Virus record (IMG/VR): IMGVR_UViG_3300010397_000069
Coordinates: 1 to 35,588 of that record
Source: a virus
Direction: 5' to 3' (one strand)
DNA: 35,588 nt
Part shown: positions 6,322-30,869 of the stretch, piece by piece
How positions within the stretch are numbered: the first letter of the stretch is position 1
Layout of the letters: the number at the start of each line of letters is the position of its first letter
The notes under the pieces: generated by a model
What the model saw: only the letters and a program-made list of their open reading frames with translations
Database searches by the model: none
Told to the model about the DNA's origin: nothing
Translations under genes and position numbers: made by a program

Positions 6322-7206
6322 ATGACGAAGATCATGTGGGACCGCACGGGCGATCGGATGTTCGAGACCGGTGTCGACCACGGCGTGCTCTACGAGCGCG
6401 ACCAGGCCGGCGAGTACTCGACTGGTGTCGCCTGGAATGGTCTGACCACCGTCACCGAGTCGCCCTCGGGCGCCGAGTCCAACCCCCAGTACGCCGACAA
6501 CATCAAGTACCTGGACCTCCGGTCGGCCGAACTGTTCGGCGCGACCATCGAGGCGTTCACGTACCCGCCGGAGTTCGCCAAGTACGACGGCAACGGCGTC
6601 CCGACGCCCGGCGTCAGTGTCGGTCAGCAGACCCGCCGGCCGTTCGGCTTCTGCTACCGCACGAAGATCGGCAACGACGTCGAGGGCAGCGACCTCGGCT
6701 ACAAGCTGCACCTGGTGTACGGCGCCACGGCGTCCCCCTCGGAGAAGGCCCACGCCACGATCAACGACTCGCCCGAGGCGATCACGTTCTCGTGGGAGGT
6801 CAGCACCGACCCGGTCCAGGTCGGCACGATCGGTGGGGTCGAGTACAACCCGACGGCCAGCATCGAGATCGACAGCACGAAGGTCGACCCGGACAGGCTG
6901 GCTGCGCTGGAGGACGTCCTCTACGGGGACGCCAGCAACGACCCGGCGATGCCGCTGCCGGCCGACGTCATCGCGATGATGAGCGGTACCACCACGCTCG
7001 CCACCCCGACCGAGCCGGCCTACAACGCGGGCACGCACACGATCACCATTCCGGCCGTCACCGGTGTCAAGTACACCATCGACGGCGAGGAGGTCGCCGC
7101 GGGTCCGGTCGTCATCACCGAGGACAAGATCGTGAAGGCGTACCCGGCGACGGGCTACCACTTCCCGGACGTCGTCGATGACGACTGGTTCTACGACTAC
7201 AGCTGA
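6322..7206 (+). CDS. Major tail (tube) protein with C-terminal Ig-like domain
   Basis: The 294-residue product is the likely tail tube subunit. Residues 1-220 contain TATIEAFTYPPEF-like and YRTKIGN segments that are also found, in the same order, in the product at 7764, so the two genes are paralogues. Residues about 221-294 form an extra domain starting TTLATPTEPAYN and containing ITIPAVTGVKYTIDG. This matches the C-terminus of the capsid fusion protein (TLATPTAPTFN, ITIPTVTGVTYK, then a YYFPHNFDADW-type ending, here YHFPDVVDDDW). Codon choice is strongly C/G-ending, like the capsid gene and unlike the genes on either side, fitting a very abundant virion protein. AAGGAA lies upstream of the ATG. 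Confidence 0.82.
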   Translation: MTKIMWDRTGDRMFETGVDHGVLYERDQAGEYSTGVAWNGLTTVTESPSGAESNPQYADNIKYLDLRSAELFGATIEAFTYPPEFAKYDGNGVPTPGVSVGQQTRRPFGFCYRTKIGNDVEGSDLGYKLHLVYGATASPSEKAHATINDSPEAITFSWEVSTDPVQVGTIGGVEYNPTASIEIDSTKVDPDRLAALEDVLYGDASNDPAMPLPADVIAMMSGTTTLATPTEPAYNAGTHTITIPAVTGVKYTIDGEEVAAGPVVITEDKIVKAYPATGYHFPDVVDDDWFYDYS

Positions 7207-21836: not shown

Positions 21837-22364
21837 ATGTTCAGCAAGACCATCAAGTACACGGACTTCAACGGGAAGACCCAGGAGAAGGTCTTCTGGT
21901 TCCACCTGTCCAACGCCAAGCTGGCCGTCCTCGCGTCCGACAAGGGCCTGCAGATCTGGGCCGAGGAAATGGCCATCCTCCAGGACGGTCGGATGATCCT
22001 CGAGAAGCTGCGCGAGCTCATCAAGATGTCCTGCGGTATCCGGTCGGAGGACGGCCAGCGCTTCATCCAGACGGAGGCGGCGCAGAGCGAACTGCTGGAC
22101 TCGCCGGCGTTCGACGAGCTCCTGTTCGAGCTCTTCGTGGGCGACAACGCGTCCAAGTTCTTCACGGCGCTCGTCCCGGAGGACCAGCAGAAGCAGATCC
22201 AGGCGCTCGCGATCAAGCAGGGCGTCTCGCCGGAGCAGCTGGCGCAGAACGAAGAGGAGCCGGCCTGGGTTCGGGAAAAGCGGGATCCGACCCCGGCCGA
22301 ACTGCAGTCCATGAGCAAGGAGCAACTCAGCGCGGCGTTCCTCGCACGAGCCCGCAACCAGTAG
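21837..22364 (+). CDS. Conserved phage protein of unknown function (YTDFNG family)
   Basis: The 175-residue product starts at ATG 21837 after AAGGGAG. The N-terminus MFSKTIKYTDFNGKTQEKVF and the following WFHLSNAKLAVLA, then MILEKLRELIKMSCGIRSED with FDELLFELFVGDNASKFFTA, recall a family of phage proteins beginning YTDYNG...F.F.L..AE that sits beside DUF6353 genes in phages of Firmicutes. The overall layout, a beta start then helices and a flexible acidic end, also resembles tail or capsid assembly chaperones, but that is only a guess. Codons are strongly C/G-ending, similar to the capsid gene, suggesting an abundant protein. Confidence 0.75.
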   Translation: MFSKTIKYTDFNGKTQEKVFWFHLSNAKLAVLASDKGLQIWAEEMAILQDGRMILEKLRELIKMSCGIRSEDGQRFIQTEAAQSELLDSPAFDELLFELFVGDNASKFFTALVPEDQQKQIQALAIKQGVSPEQLAQNEEEPAWVREKRDPTPAELQSMSKEQLSAAFLARARNQ

Positions 22365-22373
22365 CTCCTTGGT

Positions 22374-22493
22374 GAGTGATGGGGTGTCCGCGAAGGCGCT
22401 CGGCCGTACATGCGGCGCGGCAGGGGTCTCCGCCTTATTCCAGACGCCAACCTATAAACGACAGCTGGTGTACAAAAAATGTGCCCATCACTC
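22374..22493 (+). ncRNA. Candidate structured RNA or leader in an intergenic gap
   Basis: The 179-base gap after 22364 has ten-base inverted ends, 22374-22383 (GAGTGATGGG) and 22484-22493 (CCCATCACTC). Inside are AAGGCG/CGCCTT (22393-22398 with 22431-22436, enclosing GCCG/CGGC) and ACGCCA/TGGTGT (22444-22449 with 22466-22471, one G-T pair). Together they could fold as a closing stem with two arms. It fits no tRNA pattern and no long frame starts in it. The 3' end overlaps promoter copy 5, so it could instead be a DNA-level element. Confidence 0.3.
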
Positions 22494-22523
22494 GCATAAA
22501 TTACAGGGGTTATAATGAGACCC
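22492..22523 (+). promoter_or_regulatory. Promoter-like element copy 5
   Basis: TCGCAT (22492-22497), 13 bases, TATAAT (22511-22516), then GAGACCC. GGGGT before and ACCCC after the -10 box form a short dyad (22506-22510 with 22519-22524 region). It precedes the 85-residue gene at 22544 after a one-nucleotide-variant TCGCA box, and follows the possible structured RNA. Confidence 0.72.
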
Positions 22524-22543
22524 CCATTTGGAAGGAAATCGCT

Positions 22544-22801
22544 ATGGAAAAGATCAAGATTCTGAAGCGCGCCATCCGTATCGCCGTGAGTGCCGGAACA
22601 TCCGTCATCGTCCGGCAGCTCATCGAGAACAACGTGGAAGCGGAACGAACGATCGACCAGATCACCGTTGCCATCGCCAGCGTTGCCATCGGTGGAGCTG
22701 TCGGAAACTACGCCGGAAACTACACCGACGCATTCATCGACGAAACCGTGAAGTTCGTGCAGGAATTCAAGAATCGTAACAAAACGACCACCGAAGACTG
22801 A
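22544..22801 (+). CDS. Small membrane protein of the conserved unknown module, 85 residues
   Basis: The product starts at ATG 22544 after GGAAGGAA; the same frame is open further upstream, through the gap and the promoter, but has no good start. It has a basic N-terminus (EKIKILKRAIRIAVSAG), a polar stretch, then a second hydrophobic segment (ITVAIASVAIGGAVGNYAGN) followed by YTDAFIDETVKFVQEFKNRN. From memory, small phage proteins with the same plan (basic amphipathic helix, glycine/alanine-rich membrane segment, ...YxDxxIDE) lie near DUF6353 genes. One gene between promoter copy 5 and hairpin copy 3. The function is unknown. Confidence 0.68.
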   Translation: MEKIKILKRAIRIAVSAGTSVIVRQLIENNVEAERTIDQITVAIASVAIGGAVGNYAGNYTDAFIDETVKFVQEFKNRNKTTTED

Positions 22802-22807
22802 CCTATC

Positions 22808-22842
22808 AAACCGACAAGCCCATACAAGGGCTTTAGGTTTTC
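22808..22842 (+). terminator. AAACC/GGTTT hairpin copy 3
   Basis: AAGCCC (22816-22821) pairs with GGGCTT (22828-22833) around ATACAA; outer AAACC (22808-22812) matches GGTTT (22836-22840), then TT. Third copy of the design seen at 19579 and 20002: inner stems differ, flanks and TTTAGGTTTT ending are kept. Again followed by a ribosome site (AGAAGAGGA) and a gene. Confidence 0.6.
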
Positions 22843-22857
22843 TCGGAGAAGAGGAAC

Positions 22858-23508
22858 ATGAGCGAGGAATTCCCGGGAAACTCCAAATCGGTTCGGCAAC
22901 CGAAGCCGACACCGGAGATGGAGAAAAACATCGAGTCGGTCCTCTCGACGGTGGCAGCCAAGAAGAAGAAATCGCTCTTCAAGCGATTCACGGACGTCAT
23001 CATCGGCGGCGATTCGAAGACCGTCGTCCACTACGTTTTCGCCGAGGTCATCATCCCGCAGGTGAAAGATCTCTTGGCGGAAGCGACAAGTAGTGGAATC
23101 GAGAAGATGATTTACGGCGAGGCCAGGCCGCGAGGACCTCGCTACGGAGGCCGTCCTGCCGGCCCGACCAACTACACGAAGTACACCGTTCGGGGAAACA
23201 ATCCGATCGGCTCGACGACGCGGGATCCGCGGGACCGACCGCCGAACCCAACTCCGCTCCCCAGGCAACTGGATTACGAAGAGATTCTGCTCGCGACTCG
23301 TCTCGAAGCGGAAACGGTTCTCGAGAGACTGTACGATCTGGTCCGTGAGTACGACTCGGCCAGCATCCACGATCTCAAGAACCTCGTCGGATGGTCGCCC
23401 AGCTACACCGACCAGAAGTGGGGCTGGATGGACATGCAGGGATCGATGATCCGCCGTGTCCGCGATGGCTACATGCTCGAACTCCCGCGTCCCGTGGCGC
23501 TGGACTAA
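22858..23508 (+). CDS. Conserved phage protein of unknown function with basic flexible centre
   Basis: The 216-residue product starts at ATG 22858 after AGAAGAGGA. The first 45 residues are polar and lysine-rich (AAKKKKSLFKRFTDVIIGGD), then a helix VVHYVFAEVIIPQVKDLLAE, a basic, glycine/arginine/proline-rich centre (about 80-135), and a structured C-terminal part with YEEILLATRLEAETVLERLY and KWGWMDMQGSMIRRVRDGYM. From memory this order, in particular the VRDGYxLxLPRP ending, recurs in an uncharacterised family located next to DUF6353 genes. The basic centre could bind nucleic acid. The function is unknown. Confidence 0.72.
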   Translation: MSEEFPGNSKSVRQPKPTPEMEKNIESVLSTVAAKKKKSLFKRFTDVIIGGDSKTVVHYVFAEVIIPQVKDLLAEATSSGIEKMIYGEARPRGPRYGGRPAGPTNYTKYTVRGNNPIGSTTRDPRDRPPNPTPLPRQLDYEEILLATRLEAETVLERLYDLVREYDSASIHDLKNLVGWSPSYTDQKWGWMDMQGSMIRRVRDGYMLELPRPVALD

Positions 23509-23527
23509 CTTTCCAGAAAGAGGAGAA

Positions 23528-24448
23528 ATGAATCTTCCCACCGCTCTCACGTCCAAGTTCGGACGCCAGCTCCTTCAGCTGAAAGTCAACTCCCCCCAGC
23601 TCATGTTCGTCGGTGGTGCCGCGGCCGGTGTGGCCGGCGTCGTCCTGGCGTGCAAGTCCACGCTCAAGCTGAGCGACACGCTCGAGGGTTTCGAGGAGCT
23701 CAAGGAGAAGAGCAACTACGCGCTCGAGAACCAGGTCACCGACAACGAGGGCAACGTCTACGACGAGAAGGCCCACGCCAAGGATCAGACCGTCATCCGA
23801 ATCAAGACGATCCTCGCGGTCTCGAAGCTCTACGCGCCGGCAGCGGGCCTGCTGATCCTGTCGGCCTCGCTGATGACCGGCTCGCACGTCACACTGACCC
23901 GTCGGAACGCTGCAACGGCAGCGGCCTACGCCTCGGTGGACAAGGCGTTCGGTGAGTACCGTGAGCGTGTCCGCAGCCAGCTCGGCAAGGAGGTCGACGA
24001 CGAGATGCGCTACGGCGCCAAGCAGGTCTCGGAGACGATCGAGGGCGAGGACGGCAAGAAGAAGGTCGTCAAGCACACGCGGGTCGCGGACGGCATGCCG
24101 TCGATGTACGCCAAGTTCTTCGACGAGAGCTCGGTCAACTGGGTCCGTGATCCCGAGTACAACCGCATGTTCCTGCAGAGCCAGCAGGCCTACTGGAACC
24201 AGCGGCTGCAGTCCGTCGGTCACGTGTTCCTGAACGAGGTCTACGACGCGCTGGGCCTGCCGCGGACCCGCGCCGGACAGGTCGTCGGTTGGTTCCTCGG
24301 GAAGAACCGCGACAACTTCGTCGACTTCGGGATCTTCGACAACATCTCGAACGAGCGAGTCCGGGCCTTCGTCAACGGGCACGAGCAGTCCATCCTGCTC
24401 GACTTCAACGTCGACGGCGTCATCCACGAGCTCCTCGAGGACAAGTGA
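23528..24448 (+). CDS. Large membrane-associated protein, distant DUF6353 relative
   Basis: The 306-residue product starts at ATG 23528 after AAAGAGGAG; the frame extends upstream only inside the previous gene. It repeats the plan of the product at 21063: a membrane segment (LMFVGGAAAGVAGVVLACKS), a polar loop, a second (YAPAAGLLILSASLMTGS), RRNAATAAAYASVDKAFGEY and a long soluble C-terminal domain with VYDALGLPRTRAGQVVGWFL. Codons are strongly C/G-ending, so it may be abundant. Its stop overlaps the ATG of the following gene (TGATG). Whether it really belongs to DUF6353 would need profile comparison. Confidence 0.72.
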   Translation: MNLPTALTSKFGRQLLQLKVNSPQLMFVGGAAAGVAGVVLACKSTLKLSDTLEGFEELKEKSNYALENQVTDNEGNVYDEKAHAKDQTVIRIKTILAVSKLYAPAAGLLILSASLMTGSHVTLTRRNAATAAAYASVDKAFGEYRERVRSQLGKEVDDEMRYGAKQVSETIEGEDGKKKVVKHTRVADGMPSMYAKFFDESSVNWVRDPEYNRMFLQSQQAYWNQRLQSVGHVFLNEVYDALGLPRTRAGQVVGWFLGKNRDNFVDFGIFDNISNERVRAFVNGHEQSILLDFNVDGVIHELLEDK

Positions 24449-25104
24449 TGAATTAGTCTGTCAAGGTCGCCGGCGCTGCACTACTGGGCGCCGGCGTGGG
24501 GTTCTTCGTCGGCTACAAGCTCCTGGAGAAGCGGCTCGAGGAGGCGTTCGACGAGCGCATCCAGCGCGAAGAGCAGATGATGCGGGAGCACTACAGCCTC
24601 GTCCGGAAGCCGTACGCCACGGCGGAGGAGGCCGCGAAGGACCTCATCCCGGAGCCACCGAAGGCCGACGAGGATCCTCGTGAGCCGAACATGCGGACCG
24701 CGTATCACAAGATCGTCCAGAGCACCACGCCCGAGGACGAAGCGGCTGCAGACGAGAAGGAGGCCATCGCGGTCGACCGGGTCGTCAACGTGTTCGAACA
24801 CGCTCTGCCCGACTACGGCAAGCCCTACGTCATCCCGATGGACGAGTACATGGGGCAAGTCAAGGGATTCGACCAGAACACGCTCACCTACTACGAGGAC
24901 GACGACACCCTCGTGGACGAGCGGGACAACCCGATGGACGGTCCGGACGACGTTCTCGGATCGAACTTCCGCACGCAGTTCGGTGTGGAATCCAGCGACG
25001 CGAACACGGTGCACATCCGCAACGAGAAGCTGGGTCTCGAGTTCGAAGTCGTCCGCTCGTACGGCTCCTACAAGCGTGAGGTGCTCGGCGAGGAGACGGG
25101 CTAA
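24448..25104 (+). CDS. Membrane-anchored protein of the unknown module, with in-frame TAG as third codon
   Basis: ATG 24448 overlaps the previous stop, then AAT and a TAG at 24454-24456; the frame then stays open to TAA 25102-25104. Past the TAG it encodes SVKVAGAALLGAGVGFFVGY, a membrane segment, then a charged helix and a soluble acidic domain with DQNTLTYYEDDDTLVDERDN and VHIRNEKLGLEFEVVRSYGS. From memory the same plan, N-terminal anchor then a domain ending in ..VVYVRNE...EFEV....Y..EVLG, exists in relatives near DUF6353 genes. The only later starts (such as GTG 24496) cut the membrane segment. So the TAG is a mutation, a sequencing error, or is read through. TAG is a normal stop elsewhere in the window. 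Confidence 0.65.
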
Positions 25105-25634
25105 TGCCCCCCGGGTCATTGGACAATCGATATTTGACTTGGTTGTACAGTCAAGTAGCGAATCCCAATACCCGGACCGGCCCCAGGACATATTGGAATC
25201 TCATGAACCAATTGTCCAACACCGAGTTTGTTTGGTTTGTCCCGAACGACGACAACCGAGCTGAAGACGGGAGAGAGTTGAGAGCCGAGTGGGCAGCCTG
25301 TGACGGGGCGGAACCCGATCAAAATTGGCTGTCCCTCGGCTGCAGCTTTCTGGAACTGTTGATCGGATTGTCACGACGGTTGGCGTTCGAAGCGGAAGGT
25401 CATCCATCCGATTGGTTCTGGCAACTCATAAGCAATTTGGGGCTGTCGGGTTATAACGATGGTCGAGGAAATTTCAAGCACGAAGAAGTGGAAGACATCA
25501 CCTCCGCGGTTATTTGGCGGACCTACGACCGGGACGGAAATGGAGGATTATTCCCGCTCCGGTGTGCCAGCAAAGACCAACGCAAAGTAGAAATCTGGTA
25601 CCAGCTCAGTGAATACCTACTGCAAGACTCGTAA
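25104..25634 (+). CDS. Conserved phage protein of unknown function (WLYSQV family)
   Basis: The 176-residue product starts at ATG 25104 overlapping the previous stop (TAATG). It opens MPPGSLDNRYLTWLYSQVAN, has TYWNLMNQLSNTEFVWFVPN and then DDNRAEDGRELRAEW, LGCSFLELLIGLSRRLAFEA and SDWFWQLISNLGLSGYND, closing with EIWYQLSEYLL. This string of aromatic, conserved-looking blocks matches, from memory, a family beginning YxxWLYSQV in phages of Firmicutes, again beside DUF6353 genes. It is soluble with no membrane segment. Codon use is less C/G-biased than in the gene before it. The function is unknown. Confidence 0.75.
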   Translation: MPPGSLDNRYLTWLYSQVANPNTRTGPRTYWNLMNQLSNTEFVWFVPNDDNRAEDGRELRAEWAACDGAEPDQNWLSLGCSFLELLIGLSRRLAFEAEGHPSDWFWQLISNLGLSGYNDGRGNFKHEEVEDITSAVIWRTYDRDGNGGLFPLRCASKDQRKVEIWYQLSEYLLQDS

Positions 25635-25643
25635 GGGGGTTTG

Positions 25644-28600
25644 ATGGACTTCTTCACCATTCAGGTCGACGAGAAGAAAGACGGCGGCCTGACGCTGACC
25701 CCCAACTTCCGAGTAGGTAGGTCGAAAGACCTGATGGTGCGAGGTGCTTCATTTTACGCCATCTGGGATGAAGAAGCTGGGCTCTGGTCCACAGACGAGT
25801 ACGACGTCGGTCGACTCGTAGACGCAGAGATGTACAAATACGCCGAGGAGAAATTCCCCGGGGCGAATGTCACCATAAAGTCAATGATGAACTACAACAG
25901 CAAGTCGTGGTTCAACTTCCGTATGTACATGCGGAATATCAGCGATAACTACAAACAGCTCGACGAGAAGTTGACATTCGCCGACCAGAAGGTCAAACGA
26001 GAAGACTACGTCAGTCGTCGCTTGTCGTACGCTCTCGCCGTAGACGACGTCTCGGCATGGGACGAAATCGCAGGAACCCTCTACTCAGTCGAAGAGAGGA
26101 GGAAAATCGAATGGGCGATTGGGAGTATCGTTTCTGGGGATTCGAAGAAGATTCAGAAGTTCTTCGTGTTCTACGGGCAACCAGGGACGGGCAAGTCTAC
26201 TATCTTGGGGATCATCGAGAAGATGTTCTCGGGCTACGTAGCGACATTCGAAGCAAAGGCTCTCGGAAGTTCGAACAACTCTTTCGCGACGGAAGCTTTC
26301 AAATCGAACCCCCTGGTGGCGATCCAGCACGATGGGGATCTTTCGCGGATCGACGACAACACGAAGCTCAATTCTATCGTGGCGCACGAAGATATCCGCA
26401 TGAACGAGAAGTACAAGCCCAGTTACGTGGGTCGTGTGAACGCATTGTTATTCATGGGCACGAACCAGCCTGTGAAGATTTCGGATGCGAAATCCGGGAT
26501 CATTCGGCGTTTGATCGATATCCACCCGACCGGTGTGACCATTCCCCCAAATCAGTACAATTCCCTTATGTCGAGGATCGATTTCGAGCTTGGTGCTATC
26601 GCGAAGCACTGCTTGGAGGTCTATCTTTCGCTGGGGAAGAACCATTACAACTCTTACCGCCCTACTGAGATGCAGTTCCAGACGGACATCGTCTTCAACT
26701 TCATCGAGTATTTCTACGACGAATTCACCAAGTCGGATGGCACAACGCTGAAGCGTGCTTACGACATGTACAAACAATTCTGTGATGTGACTGGGATCGA
26801 GAAGCCCCTGCCGCAGTACAAGCTCCGCGAAGAGTTGCGAAACTATTTCGAGGAGTTCAAGGAGCGTACGGAGGTCGACGGTGAACTTGTACGGAGCTAC
26901 TACTCAGGTTTCACTGCCGATCGATTCAAAAAGCCAGCAGCCCCAAAAGAAGCGGTGTTCTCCCTTGTCATCGAAGACGAAACATCACTTCTTGATGAGG
27001 AGCTGGCAGATCAGCTGGCACAGCTTTCTACTACAGGTGGAACTCCAGGGCTTTCATGGTCCAAGGTCACCTCGACTCTGAAGGAAATCGACACCCGCAA
27101 GGAACATTACGTCATGGTTCCCGAGCGGCACATCGTGATAGATTTCGATTTGAAAGGAGAAAACGGTGGGAAGGCACTCTCTCGAAACCTCGAGGCAGCT
27201 TCGTCCTGGCCCCCCACGTACGCTGAACTGTCGAAGAGTGGTGAAGGTGTACATCTTCACTATTACTACGATGGCGATGTGGCTGAGCTCTCTCGAGTAT
27301 ACTCGGAGGGCATCGAGGTCAAGGTATTCACTGGCAAAGCCTCGCTCCGTCGAAAGCGCACCAAGTGCAATACTGTTCCGATCGCCACGCTTCACAAGGG
27401 TGGCCTTCCTCTCAAGGAGAAATCAAAGGTGCTTGCCGCCGACACAATTCGCAGTGAACGCGGACTGCGTGATCTCATTGCCCGGAATTTCCGTAAGGAG
27501 ATCCATCCGGGAACTAAGCCGTCGATTGATTTCATCAAGAAAATCCTCGACGAAGCCTTCACCTCCGGGCTTGCTTACGACGTCAGCGACCTTCGTCCCA
27601 AACTGGTGGCATTCGCCAACAATTCGACGAACCAATCCATGGCTTGCCTCAAGATCGTCAGCGGTATGCGACTCAAGAGCGCAGACGCTCTCGTTTCTGT
27701 ACCCGAGCCCCGACGAGCAGCCGACGACACCGATGCCCCGATCGTCATTTACGACGTCGAGGTTTTCCCGAATCTCTTCGTGGTGTGCTGGAAGTACGAG
27801 GGCCGGGACGAAATCGTCAAGATGATCAACCCCTCCCCCGAAGAGATGGAGGGTCTGTTCAAGCTGAAGCTGGCCGGCTTCAACAACAGGCGGTACGACA
27901 ACCACATTCTGTACGGCCGGTACATGGGCTACAGCAACAAGCAGCTATTCGAGCTCAGCCAGCGTCTGATCAACGGCAACAACGCTGCATTCGCCGCCGC
28001 GTATTCCCTGTCGTACATGGACATTTGGGACCTCTCGAGCAAGAAGCAGTCGCTCAAGAAGTTCGAGATCGAGCTGGGAATCCCCCACCAGGAACTCGAA
28101 CACCCTTGGGATGAGCCGGTTCCCGAGGAGCTCTGGCCCAAGGTCGTCGAGTACTGCTGCAACGACGTCAGGGCCACGGAGGAAGTCAAGAAGGCTCGCG
28201 AAGGCGACGTCGTTGCGAGGCAGATCCTCGCGGACCTCAGTGGTCTGACGATGAATGACCCGACCGCCAAGCACGCCGCGGCGATCATCTTCGAGGGAGA
28301 CCGCAACCCGCAGGCGAAGTTCGTCTACACGAAGCTCCAGGAGGAATTCCCGGGCTACGAGTTCGACGCCGGCAAGTCGACCTACATGGGAGAGGAGGTT
28401 GGCGAAGGTGGGTACGTCTACGCGGAACCCGGCATCTACGAAAACGTGGTTCTACTGGATGTGGCGTCGATGCATCCGACGTCTATCATCCAGCTCAACA
28501 TGTTCGGGGAGTGCACTAAGAACTTTGAGGCGCTCGTTAAGGCTCGCCTGGCAATCAAGGACGGCGACTACGAGAGTGCTCGAGGAATGCTTGGCGGAAA

Positions 28601-29387
28601 GCTCGCCCCGTATCTCAAGGACGTCTCGGACAAGAAGGCCCTCCAGGGACTCAGCGACGCCCTGAAGATCATCATCAACATTGTGTACGGGCTGACGTCG
28701 GCAACGTTCGACAGTCCGTTCCGCGACAAGCGCAACAAGGACAACATCGCCGCGAAGCGCGGTGCTCTGTTCATGATCGAGCTGAAGAACCACGTGCAGG
28801 AGCTCGGCTACACGGTTCTGCACATCAAGACCGACTCGATCAAGATCGCCAACGCCGACGACGAGATCATCAACCAGGTCACGTTGTTCGGCGAGAAGTA
28901 CGGCTACAACTTCACGTACGACCCCGACAAGGACGTCTACGAGAAGATCTGCCTCGTCAACGACGCGGTGTACGTCGCGAAGACCGGAGGGGAGGACTCG
29001 CATTGGACGGCGACGGGAGCCCAGTTCAAGGTCCCGTACGTGTTCAAGACGCTGTTCTCGGGCGAGCCGATCCTCCAGCAGGATCTGGCCGAGACGAAGC
29101 AGGTCTCGAAGGGCCACATGTACCTCCACTTCGAGTCCGGTCCGCACTTCGTTGGTCGGACTGGTCGCTTCATCCCCGTTGTCTCCGGTGGCGGTGAGCT
29201 CAAGCGGCACGATGGCGAGAAGCAGTACGCCGTCACCGGCACCAGTGGCTACAAGTGGCTGGAGTCGTACGCGGTCAAGGCCAGCGGCAAGGACATCGAG
29301 ATGGACACCAACTACTTCGAGGGTCTGGTCGACAAGGCGAAGGCGGCCATCGAGAAGTTCGGATCGTTCGAGGAGTTTGTCGCATGA
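25644..29387 (+). CDS. Fused SF3-type helicase, AEP-like primase and family B DNA polymerase
   Basis: The 1247-residue product is read from ATG 25644 (a TTG one codon earlier is possible) after AAGGGGG. Residues about 170-300 form an SF3/D5-type helicase: Walker A GQPGTGKST near 178 and a late NALLFMGTNQP, RRLID segment. Residues about 485-600 look like an AEP primase: IVIDFDLKGENG (Asp-x-Asp) and SKSGEGVHLHYYY (the G-x-H type motif). From about 700 comes a family B polymerase: exonuclease motifs IYDVEVFPN (near 703), FNNRRYD (near 747) and YCCNDVRA (near 837); polymerase motifs LLDVASMHPTSI (near 938), KIIINIVYG (near 1008) and KTDSIKI (near 1062). One chain could unwind, prime and copy DNA. 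Confidence 0.85.
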   Translation: MDFFTIQVDEKKDGGLTLTPNFRVGRSKDLMVRGASFYAIWDEEAGLWSTDEYDVGRLVDAEMYKYAEEKFPGANVTIKSMMNYNSKSWFNFRMYMRNISDNYKQLDEKLTFADQKVKREDYVSRRLSYALAVDDVSAWDEIAGTLYSVEERRKIEWAIGSIVSGDSKKIQKFFVFYGQPGTGKSTILGIIEKMFSGYVATFEAKALGSSNNSFATEAFKSNPLVAIQHDGDLSRIDDNTKLNSIVAHEDIRMNEKYKPSYVGRVNALLFMGTNQPVKISDAKSGIIRRLIDIHPTGVTIPPNQYNSLMSRIDFELGAIAKHCLEVYLSLGKNHYNSYRPTEMQFQTDIVFNFIEYFYDEFTKSDGTTLKRAYDMYKQFCDVTGIEKPLPQYKLREELRNYFEEFKERTEVDGELVRSYYSGFTADRFKKPAAPKEAVFSLVIEDETSLLDEELADQLAQLSTTGGTPGLSWSKVTSTLKEIDTRKEHYVMVPERHIVIDFDLKGENGGKALSRNLEAASSWPPTYAELSKSGEGVHLHYYYDGDVAELSRVYSEGIEVKVFTGKASLRRKRTKCNTVPIATLHKGGLPLKEKSKVLAADTIRSERGLRDLIARNFRKEIHPGTKPSIDFIKKILDEAFTSGLAYDVSDLRPKLVAFANNSTNQSMACLKIVSGMRLKSADALVSVPEPRRAADDTDAPIVIYDVEVFPNLFVVCWKYEGRDEIVKMINPSPEEMEGLFKLKLAGFNNRRYDNHILYGRYMGYSNKQLFELSQRLINGNNAAFAAAYSLSYMDIWDLSSKKQSLKKFEIELGIPHQELEHPWDEPVPEELWPKVVEYCCNDVRATEEVKKAREGDVVARQILADLSGLTMNDPTAKHAAAIIFEGDRNPQAKFVYTKLQEEFPGYEFDAGKSTYMGEEVGEGGYVYAEPGIYENVVLLDVASMHPTSIIQLNMFGECTKNFEALVKARLAIKDGDYESARGMLGGKLAPYLKDVSDKKALQGLSDALKIIINIVYGLTSATFDSPFRDKRNKDNIAAKRGALFMIELKNHVQELGYTVLHIKTDSIKIANADDEIINQVTLFGEKYGYNFTYDPDKDVYEKICLVNDAVYVAKTGGEDSHWTATGAQFKVPYVFKTLFSGEPILQQDLAETKQVSKGHMYLHFESGPHFVGRTGRFIPVVSGGGELKRHDGEKQYAVTGTSGYKWLESYAVKASGKDIEMDTNYFEGLVDKAKAAIEKFGSFEEFVA

Positions 29388-29536
29388 CACGAATTCTGGC
29401 TCTCATCATTTCCTTCTTCCTCCCCAAGAAGGTCAAGCTCTACGCCATGCTCGACTGGTTCGACATGTGCGAAGAGGGTCATGTCGAGATCGACTGCCCG
29501 AAGTACACACTTCGAGTAGACAAGGTGGTGAAATGA
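29384..29536 (+). CDS. Small protein with N-terminal hydrophobic segment, 50 residues
   Basis: The frame starts at ATG 29384 overlapping the polymerase stop (ATGA) and ends with a TGA that overlaps the next ATG. The product begins MTRILALIISFFLPKKVK, a short membrane-type segment, then a polar part with two cysteines (FDMCEEGHVEIDCPKYTL). It could be a small anchored or peripheral membrane protein. No family is recognised. Coupled overlaps on both sides support translation. Confidence 0.55.
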   Translation: MTRILALIISFFLPKKVKLYAMLDWFDMCEEGHVEIDCPKYTLRVDKVVK

Positions 29537-30070: not shown

Positions 30071-30321
30071 TGAGCGTCGAGGAGTCGAAGCTCCGAGCCT
30101 TGAGCTCCATCGCCGGGTCTCTGAAGGACATCGTCCGGGTCATGACGGCGCTCAACGAGAACCTCGTTGCGTTCGCCAAGCAGACCAAAGAGAGCGACGA
30201 CAAGTACGACAAGCTCATGGAGAAGAAGGGCGACATGATGGCCCTGATCCCCCGGACGTATCAGCCGCCGGAGGGTTACGCGGCCGGCGGAGCTCCCGAA
30301 ATCCCGAAAGCAGGTGAGTAG
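30070..30321 (+). CDS. Small helical protein, 83 residues
   Basis: The frame starts at ATG 30070 (TGATG overlap) after GAGGAAAGA. The product is largely helical with coiled-coil character (LRALSSIAGSLKDIVRVMTA, then LVAFAKQTKESDDKYDKLME), and ends in a proline/glycine tail. It directly precedes the probable single-stranded DNA-binding protein, to which it is translationally coupled. No family is recognised. Confidence 0.55.
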   Translation: MSVEESKLRALSSIAGSLKDIVRVMTALNENLVAFAKQTKESDDKYDKLMEKKGDMMALIPRTYQPPEGYAAGGAPEIPKAGE

Positions 30322-30869
30322 TGGCGAACAACGATCGAAATGTCACACTCGAGAACGTCGTCATCGCCTTCCGAAACTTCGAGGGTAAGGAGGACAAGTA
30401 CAACCGCGAAGGCGACAGGAACTTCGCAGTCTTCCTGAGCGAAGAGATCGCGGACAAGATGGCGGCCGACGGGTGGAACGTCAAGTACCTCCGTGAACGC
30501 GAGGGCGACGAGGGTCCGCCGCAGGCCTACATCCAGGTCGCCGTCTCGTACAAGATCAAGCCGCCCAAGATCGGCGTGCTCACCTCGAAGGGTCTCCGGT
30601 ACTACACCGAGGAGATCGTCGGTCTGCTCGACTGGGTCGACATCGAGCTGGCGGATGTCACGATCAACCCGTACGAGTGGGCTGTCGGCGGAAAGAGTGG
30701 TACGAAAGCCTACCTGTCCAGTCTCTTCCTCAAGATCGCCGAGGACTACCTCCAGCTCAAGTGGGAGGCCATGGCGGAGGAGAGCGTCAAGCAGATCGAG
30801 TCCGGTCCGTCCGACGTCATCGAGGGCGAGTACTGGGTGGACCAGAAGGAACTGGAGGCAGCGAAGTGA
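30321..30869 (+). CDS. Probable single-stranded DNA-binding protein
   Basis: The 182-residue product starts at GTG 30321 overlapping the previous TAG, after a GGTGAG. Residues 1-140 look like one beta-barrel: VTLENVVIAFRNFEGKEDKY, RNFAVFLSEEIADKMAADGW, AYIQVAVSYKIKPPKIGVLT and VDIELADVTINPYEW. This strand order and the phrases NFEGKxDxYN, FAVFL and DGWNVKYL match, from memory, a family of phage single-stranded DNA-binding-like proteins in Firmicutes phages. The acidic C-terminus (SDVIEGEYWVDQKELEAAK) recalls the acidic tails that recruit replication partners. Its place near the polymerase supports the role. DNA binding is inferred. Confidence 0.6.
   Translation: MANNDRNVTLENVVIAFRNFEGKEDKYNREGDRNFAVFLSEEIADKMAADGWNVKYLREREGDEGPPQAYIQVAVSYKIKPPKIGVLTSKGLRYYTEEIVGLLDWVDIELADVTINPYEWAVGGKSGTKAYLSSLFLKIAEDYLQLKWEAMAEESVKQIESGPSDVIEGEYWVDQKELEAAK

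Follow-up and report, generated by a model that had tools for sequence, protein, structure and literature searches.

The locus analysed here raises the question of whether a single open frame can supply a phage with helicase, primase and polymerase together, and whether such a chain was assembled recently from separate genes. The window, i.e. the whole stretch of DNA that was analysed, is an entire IMG/VR virus record, linear, of 35,588 bases and without a completeness estimate, so that other replication genes could lie beyond its ends. Its genes for a portal, a tape measure and a large terminase subunit indicate a tailed phage.

The replicase frame and its relatives

The frame (Table 1) contained zero internal stops between its ATG and TGA; the program-made ORF list had extended it upstream by one TTG codon. 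In the profile search, PHROG 4210 (annotated as DNA polymerase) covered residues 1-1246 with 1873 bits. When the protein was compared by tblastn with 50,697 phage records, 324 records had a match and 252 covered at least 80% of it. The replicase was complete and uninterrupted in 18 of 20 IMG/VR loci, the exceptions being one cut at the contig end (L019) and one with a frameshift (L022); two of the loci (L018 and L021) appear near-identical to two others (L014 and L011). The uninterrupted frame of 1247 residues that the first-pass annotation had proposed was thus borne out, and it is a real gene and no chance open frame.

The relatives found by tblastn came chiefly from phages of Arthrobacter, Gordonia and Streptomyces, and many were annotated as DNA primase/polymerase. 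Among the matches listed, most of those with at least 80% coverage showed 47-60% identity and the best (60%) was Rhodococcus phage ReqiPoco6; Lactococcus phages matched at 37-40%. In the frameshifted IMG/VR contig, the frame is broken at 6600-6690, near residue 210 of the replicase, by either a sequencing error or a real interruption. In Streptomyces phage pSt2402 (L023), a 151-aa open frame annotated as DNA polymerase (1983-2438) resembles the SF3 helicase domain of the replicase, with 29% identity over query residues 138-327. It lies upstream of a complete replicase, with three genes intervening, and from its sequence it looks like a shortened extra helicase copy.

Table 1. Positions in the window of the predicted replicase, its domains and neighbouring genes
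Feature	Position	Strand	Remarks
Gene directly upstream of replicase	25104..25634	+	PHROG 4678, 3e-66
Putative HelPrimPolB / GP55-type replicase gene	25644..29387	+	1247 aa, ATG start, TGA stop; single open frame, PHROG 4210, GP55 alignment
N-terminal region ahead of helicase core	25644..26093	+	Residues 1-150
SF3/D5-type helicase domain	26094..26918	+	Residues 151-425; Pfam, model, motifs
Helicase-primase variable linker, start	26919..26978	+	Poor conservation at residues 426-470
AEP (PriS-like) primase catalytic domain	26979..27413	+	Residues 446-590; D500/D502, G-x-H, IExK
Four-helix domain, predicted GP55 aHD counterpart	27453..27668	+	Residues 604-675; Y645, F657; model
3'-5' exonuclease domain of family B polymerase	27729..28403	+	Residues 696-920; PHROG 1252, motifs
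Family B polymerase domain	28404..29384	+	Residues 921-1247; motifs, E. coli Pol II match
Phage ssDNA-binding protein	30321..30869	+	Pfam Phage_ssDNA_bind 2.5e-55; PHROG 4787; ~1 kb downstream of replicase

Domain composition

The domain order in the one chain is SF3 helicase, AEP/PrimPol and PolB, as in the HelPrimPolB group. The motifs that the first-pass annotation had listed, i.e. helicase Walker A, AEP D-x-D and G-x-H, three Exo motifs and Pol A, B and C, were all present and conserved in the relatives. Its reading of the chain as SF3 helicase, AEP primase and proofreading family B polymerase is supported by the motifs, by profile matches, by the predicted folds and by homology over the whole length to GP55 of lactococcal phage 1706.

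In the helicase part, Walker A (GQPGTGKST, with K184), Walker B (223-232), sensor 1 (267-277) and an Arg finger (284-293) were recognised. It was the one part that Pfam recognised in the window protein (DUF5906, 4e-12; Pox_D5, 2.5e-5). Residues 1-430 were modelled with moderate confidence (pLDDT 74.4, pTM 0.60), and the predicted SF3/D5 helicase fold matched SaPI5 primase-helicase, the C-terminal region of NrS-1 primase-polymerase, and poxvirus D5/E5 and ASFV helicases. The region ahead of the core (residues 1-150) was 47-70% identical across all full-length IMG/VR relatives and was modelled as helices and strands, with pLDDT of 52-94 by block. The linker (residues 426-470), which overlaps the start of the modelled AEP domain, was 20-51% identical among the IMG/VR relatives and had the lowest GC3 in the gene (0.38). 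The replication origin of lambda lies inside its O gene, and the low GC3 of the linker prompted us to consider an origin inside the replicase gene; this candidate was rejected, as positions 26700-27800 held neither iterons nor strong repeats.

The AEP fold had been the main doubt of the first-pass annotation. A profile search with residues 440-700 against the sequences of solved structures gave zero matches and therefore a fold search was used. An AF2 model of these residues, built from 18 sequences (mean pLDDT 80.6), had NrS-1 primase-polymerase as its best match both in Foldseek (E 2.5e-5) and in VIA-align (Z 8.8, 141 residues aligned, rmsd 3.8), a Z that is barely over the level where matches can be non-specific; pRN1 ORF904 (6.5) and then several more AEPs followed in VIA-align. 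The whole-model TM-scores were low (0.26-0.36), probably because the four-helix domain was included in the model. The D-x-D motif (D500 and D502), a G-x-H within 525-545 and the third motif (556-571) complete the features by which the AEP superfamily is recognised. The presence of an AEP fold in residues 440-700 is thus supported by the predicted fold, the three conserved motifs and the homology to GP55. Four helices were modelled behind it (residues 605-616, 627-640, 648-659 and 665-673); this putative aHD follows the PriS-like domain and replaces the helix-bundle domain, as in HelPrimPolB and GP55.

PHROG 1252 (DNA polymerase) matched residues 695-895, where Exo I (D704/E706), Exo II (744-755) and Exo III (835-844) are conserved in the relatives. 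The polymerase part, with motifs A (D939), B (1006-1020) and C (1058-1068), matched E. coli Pol II by sequence (E 5.6e-5). Its motif C reads K-T-D-S rather than D-T-D-S, in the window protein and in every complete relative. The same K-T-D-S occurs in the active GP55, so the missing first Asp is no mark of inactivity. A divergent motif C is described for the HelPrimPolB group (PMC7544198).

Comparison with known replicases

A 2016 review reportedly gave the first description of a helicase-primase-polymerase fusion; a search of the literature for that phrase found no paper under the same wording. The HelPrimPolB group was named in 2020 for PolB with N-terminal SF3 helicase and PrimPol domains (Kazlauskas et al., PMC7544198). 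Comparison with the available part of that description revealed zero differences: the fused PolB, SF3 helicase and PrimPol as well as the divergent motif C are shared by the window protein. In a 2025 study (PMC12205980), GP55 was characterised biochemically as a 'four-in-one replicase' and shown to act as helicase, primase, polymerase and exonuclease. In that study GP55 is a dimer whose unwinding depends on UTP/dTTP, and more than 1000 homologues are noted.

The window protein and GP55 aligned over their whole lengths (38% identity, 1322 columns) and have in common the order helicase, AEP, four-helix domain and PolB, together with the KTDS motif C. Seven residues were taken from the text on inactivating mutants of GP55, where mutation of K189, D509, Y655, F667, D712, E714 and D949 abolished the corresponding activity and Y655 and F667 were required for priming (PMC12205980). 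All seven were identical in the window protein (K184, D502, Y645, F657, D704, E706 and D939, respectively) and conserved in its relatives. However, GP55 is longer by 70 residues, chiefly near the C-terminus, and the Walker B region (IQHDGD in the window protein, I-DADSD in GP55) and sensor 1 (GTNQ and ASNE, respectively) are different, so the UTP/dTTP dependence may not carry over. In the genome of phage 1706 itself (L002), gene 75 (22083-25172, about 1030 aa) is annotated as an RNA-dependent RNA polymerase, which is odd for a dsDNA phage.

Full-length matches were also found to the 'DNA primase/polymerase' of actinophages (Rhodococcus ReqiPoco6, Gordonia Petito, Arthrobacter and Streptomyces phages), mostly at about 50-60% identity and with sequence divergence as the sole difference. 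SaPI5 primase-helicase shares the SF3/D5 helicase fold, and NrS-1 primase-polymerase the AEP fold. In NrS-1, however, the AEP stands ahead of the helicase region (structures of 1-305 and 305-718), whereas in the window protein the helicase comes first, then AEP and PolB. To our knowledge NrS-1 primase-polymerase has no PolB domain. With its helicase ahead of the AEP and its PolB domain, the window protein falls outside the NrS-1 type.

The first-pass annotation had called three activities in one chain unusual. Compared with replicases in general they are, but this architecture was already published, named and common in phages (PMC7544198; PMC12205980), and by its sequence the window protein is a clear relative of these enzymes. 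The complete helicase-primase-polymerase chain is widespread in Gordonia, Arthrobacter, Streptomyces and Rhodococcus phages as well as lactococcal ones. The picture of phage replication is unchanged by the window replicase, which offers a divergent second enzyme to compare with GP55.

Proposed function

We estimate a probability of about 95% that this gene codes for the main DNA replicase of the phage, an enzyme of the HelPrimPolB / GP55 type. In the most likely mechanism, by homology to GP55, the N-terminal helicase domain would unwind the duplex and bring about dimerisation, and the AEP domain, together with the four-helix domain next to it, would make short RNA primers. These would be extended by the C-terminal family B polymerase, which would proofread in the 3'-5' direction and displace strands with the help of the helicase; within a dimer, priming may fall to one subunit and extension to the other. 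The displaced strand is probably coated by the ssDNA-binding protein encoded downstream.

Alternative explanations and the history of the fusion

It could be argued that the AEP part is a decayed remnant and that the chain works as a helicase-polymerase relying on primers from another enzyme. The Pfam Prim-Pol signal was indeed weak (0.024 in the window protein, at best 0.0013 among the relatives, and seen in 10 of 18 of them). However, both Asp of D-x-D, as well as G-x-H and the third motif, vary little or not at all among the relatives, the residues on which priming by GP55 depends are retained, and other primase families were not found among the window proteins scanned, which were part of the ORFs, and we therefore regard decay as very improbable. 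An assembly artefact that fused two genes, for which nothing speaks beyond the metagenomic nature of the contig, is practically negligible in view of the same uninterrupted gene in isolated, sequenced phages.

The codon pattern had also been read by eye as changing along the gene, and this change was real: the best break in GC3 lay at codon 692 (window 27719), with 0.66 before and 0.86 after it (permutation p 0.0005), and persisted after allowing for amino-acid composition. Since this is the primase/polymerase junction (aHD/exonuclease), the break would fit a recent joining, in the lineage of the window, of separate helicase-primase and polymerase genes. Homologues as separate genes do exist: in Eggerthella phage EL753P1 (L025, 5492-9851) and Listeria phage P35 (L026, 5068-8892) a standalone PolB adjoins a primase-helicase. 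In both, however, the primase precedes the helicase, the reverse of the fused replicase, so that simple end-to-end joining cannot yield the fused gene and the fusion probably also involved reordering. Moreover, the complete fusion is carried by relatives of about 40-60% identity whose hosts are different, and most relatives lack a comparable break. On average, GC3 among the relatives was lower in the AEP part and higher in the exonuclease part, with little change in most of them; several had weaker breaks at 611-642, and weaker breaks close to the junction were noted in L007, L008, L013 and L020. For the helicase, the primase and the polymerase part alike, L015 was the nearest relative and L013 the next, and the pairwise identities of the two halves correlated at 0.92 among 20 proteins, whose pairs are mutually dependent. 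The suggestion that the codon shift hints at joined genes did not survive these comparisons; a recent joining is even less probable than a decayed primase, and the fusion is therefore old. The codon shift must then have some other origin, for example a regional constraint on codons or an exchange with a close relative.

With the HelPrimPolB / GP55-type replicase as the preferred reading, it may be speculated that its branch, which was found largely in actinobacterial phages, differs from GP55 in helicase fuelling or primer start sites, since Walker B and sensor 1 are not the same in the two, and that the shift at codon 692 may be the trace of a polymerase module swapped between related replicases; we hold this combined proposal to be rather unlikely.

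Gene neighbourhood

The ssDNA-binding protein of the window showed 38% identity to gp66 of phage 1706, which the GP55 study describes as a single-stranded binding protein (PMC12205980). Its gene lies downstream of the replicase gene in both phages, and the protein is a probable partner of the replicase. The genes upstream of the replicase belong to the families DUF6353, PHROG 4695 and PHROG 4678. Directly behind the replicase, a 50-aa open frame (29384-29536) with zero Pfam matches begins within an ATGA, where its start overlaps the stop codon of the replicase, an arrangement which suggests translational coupling of the two frames.
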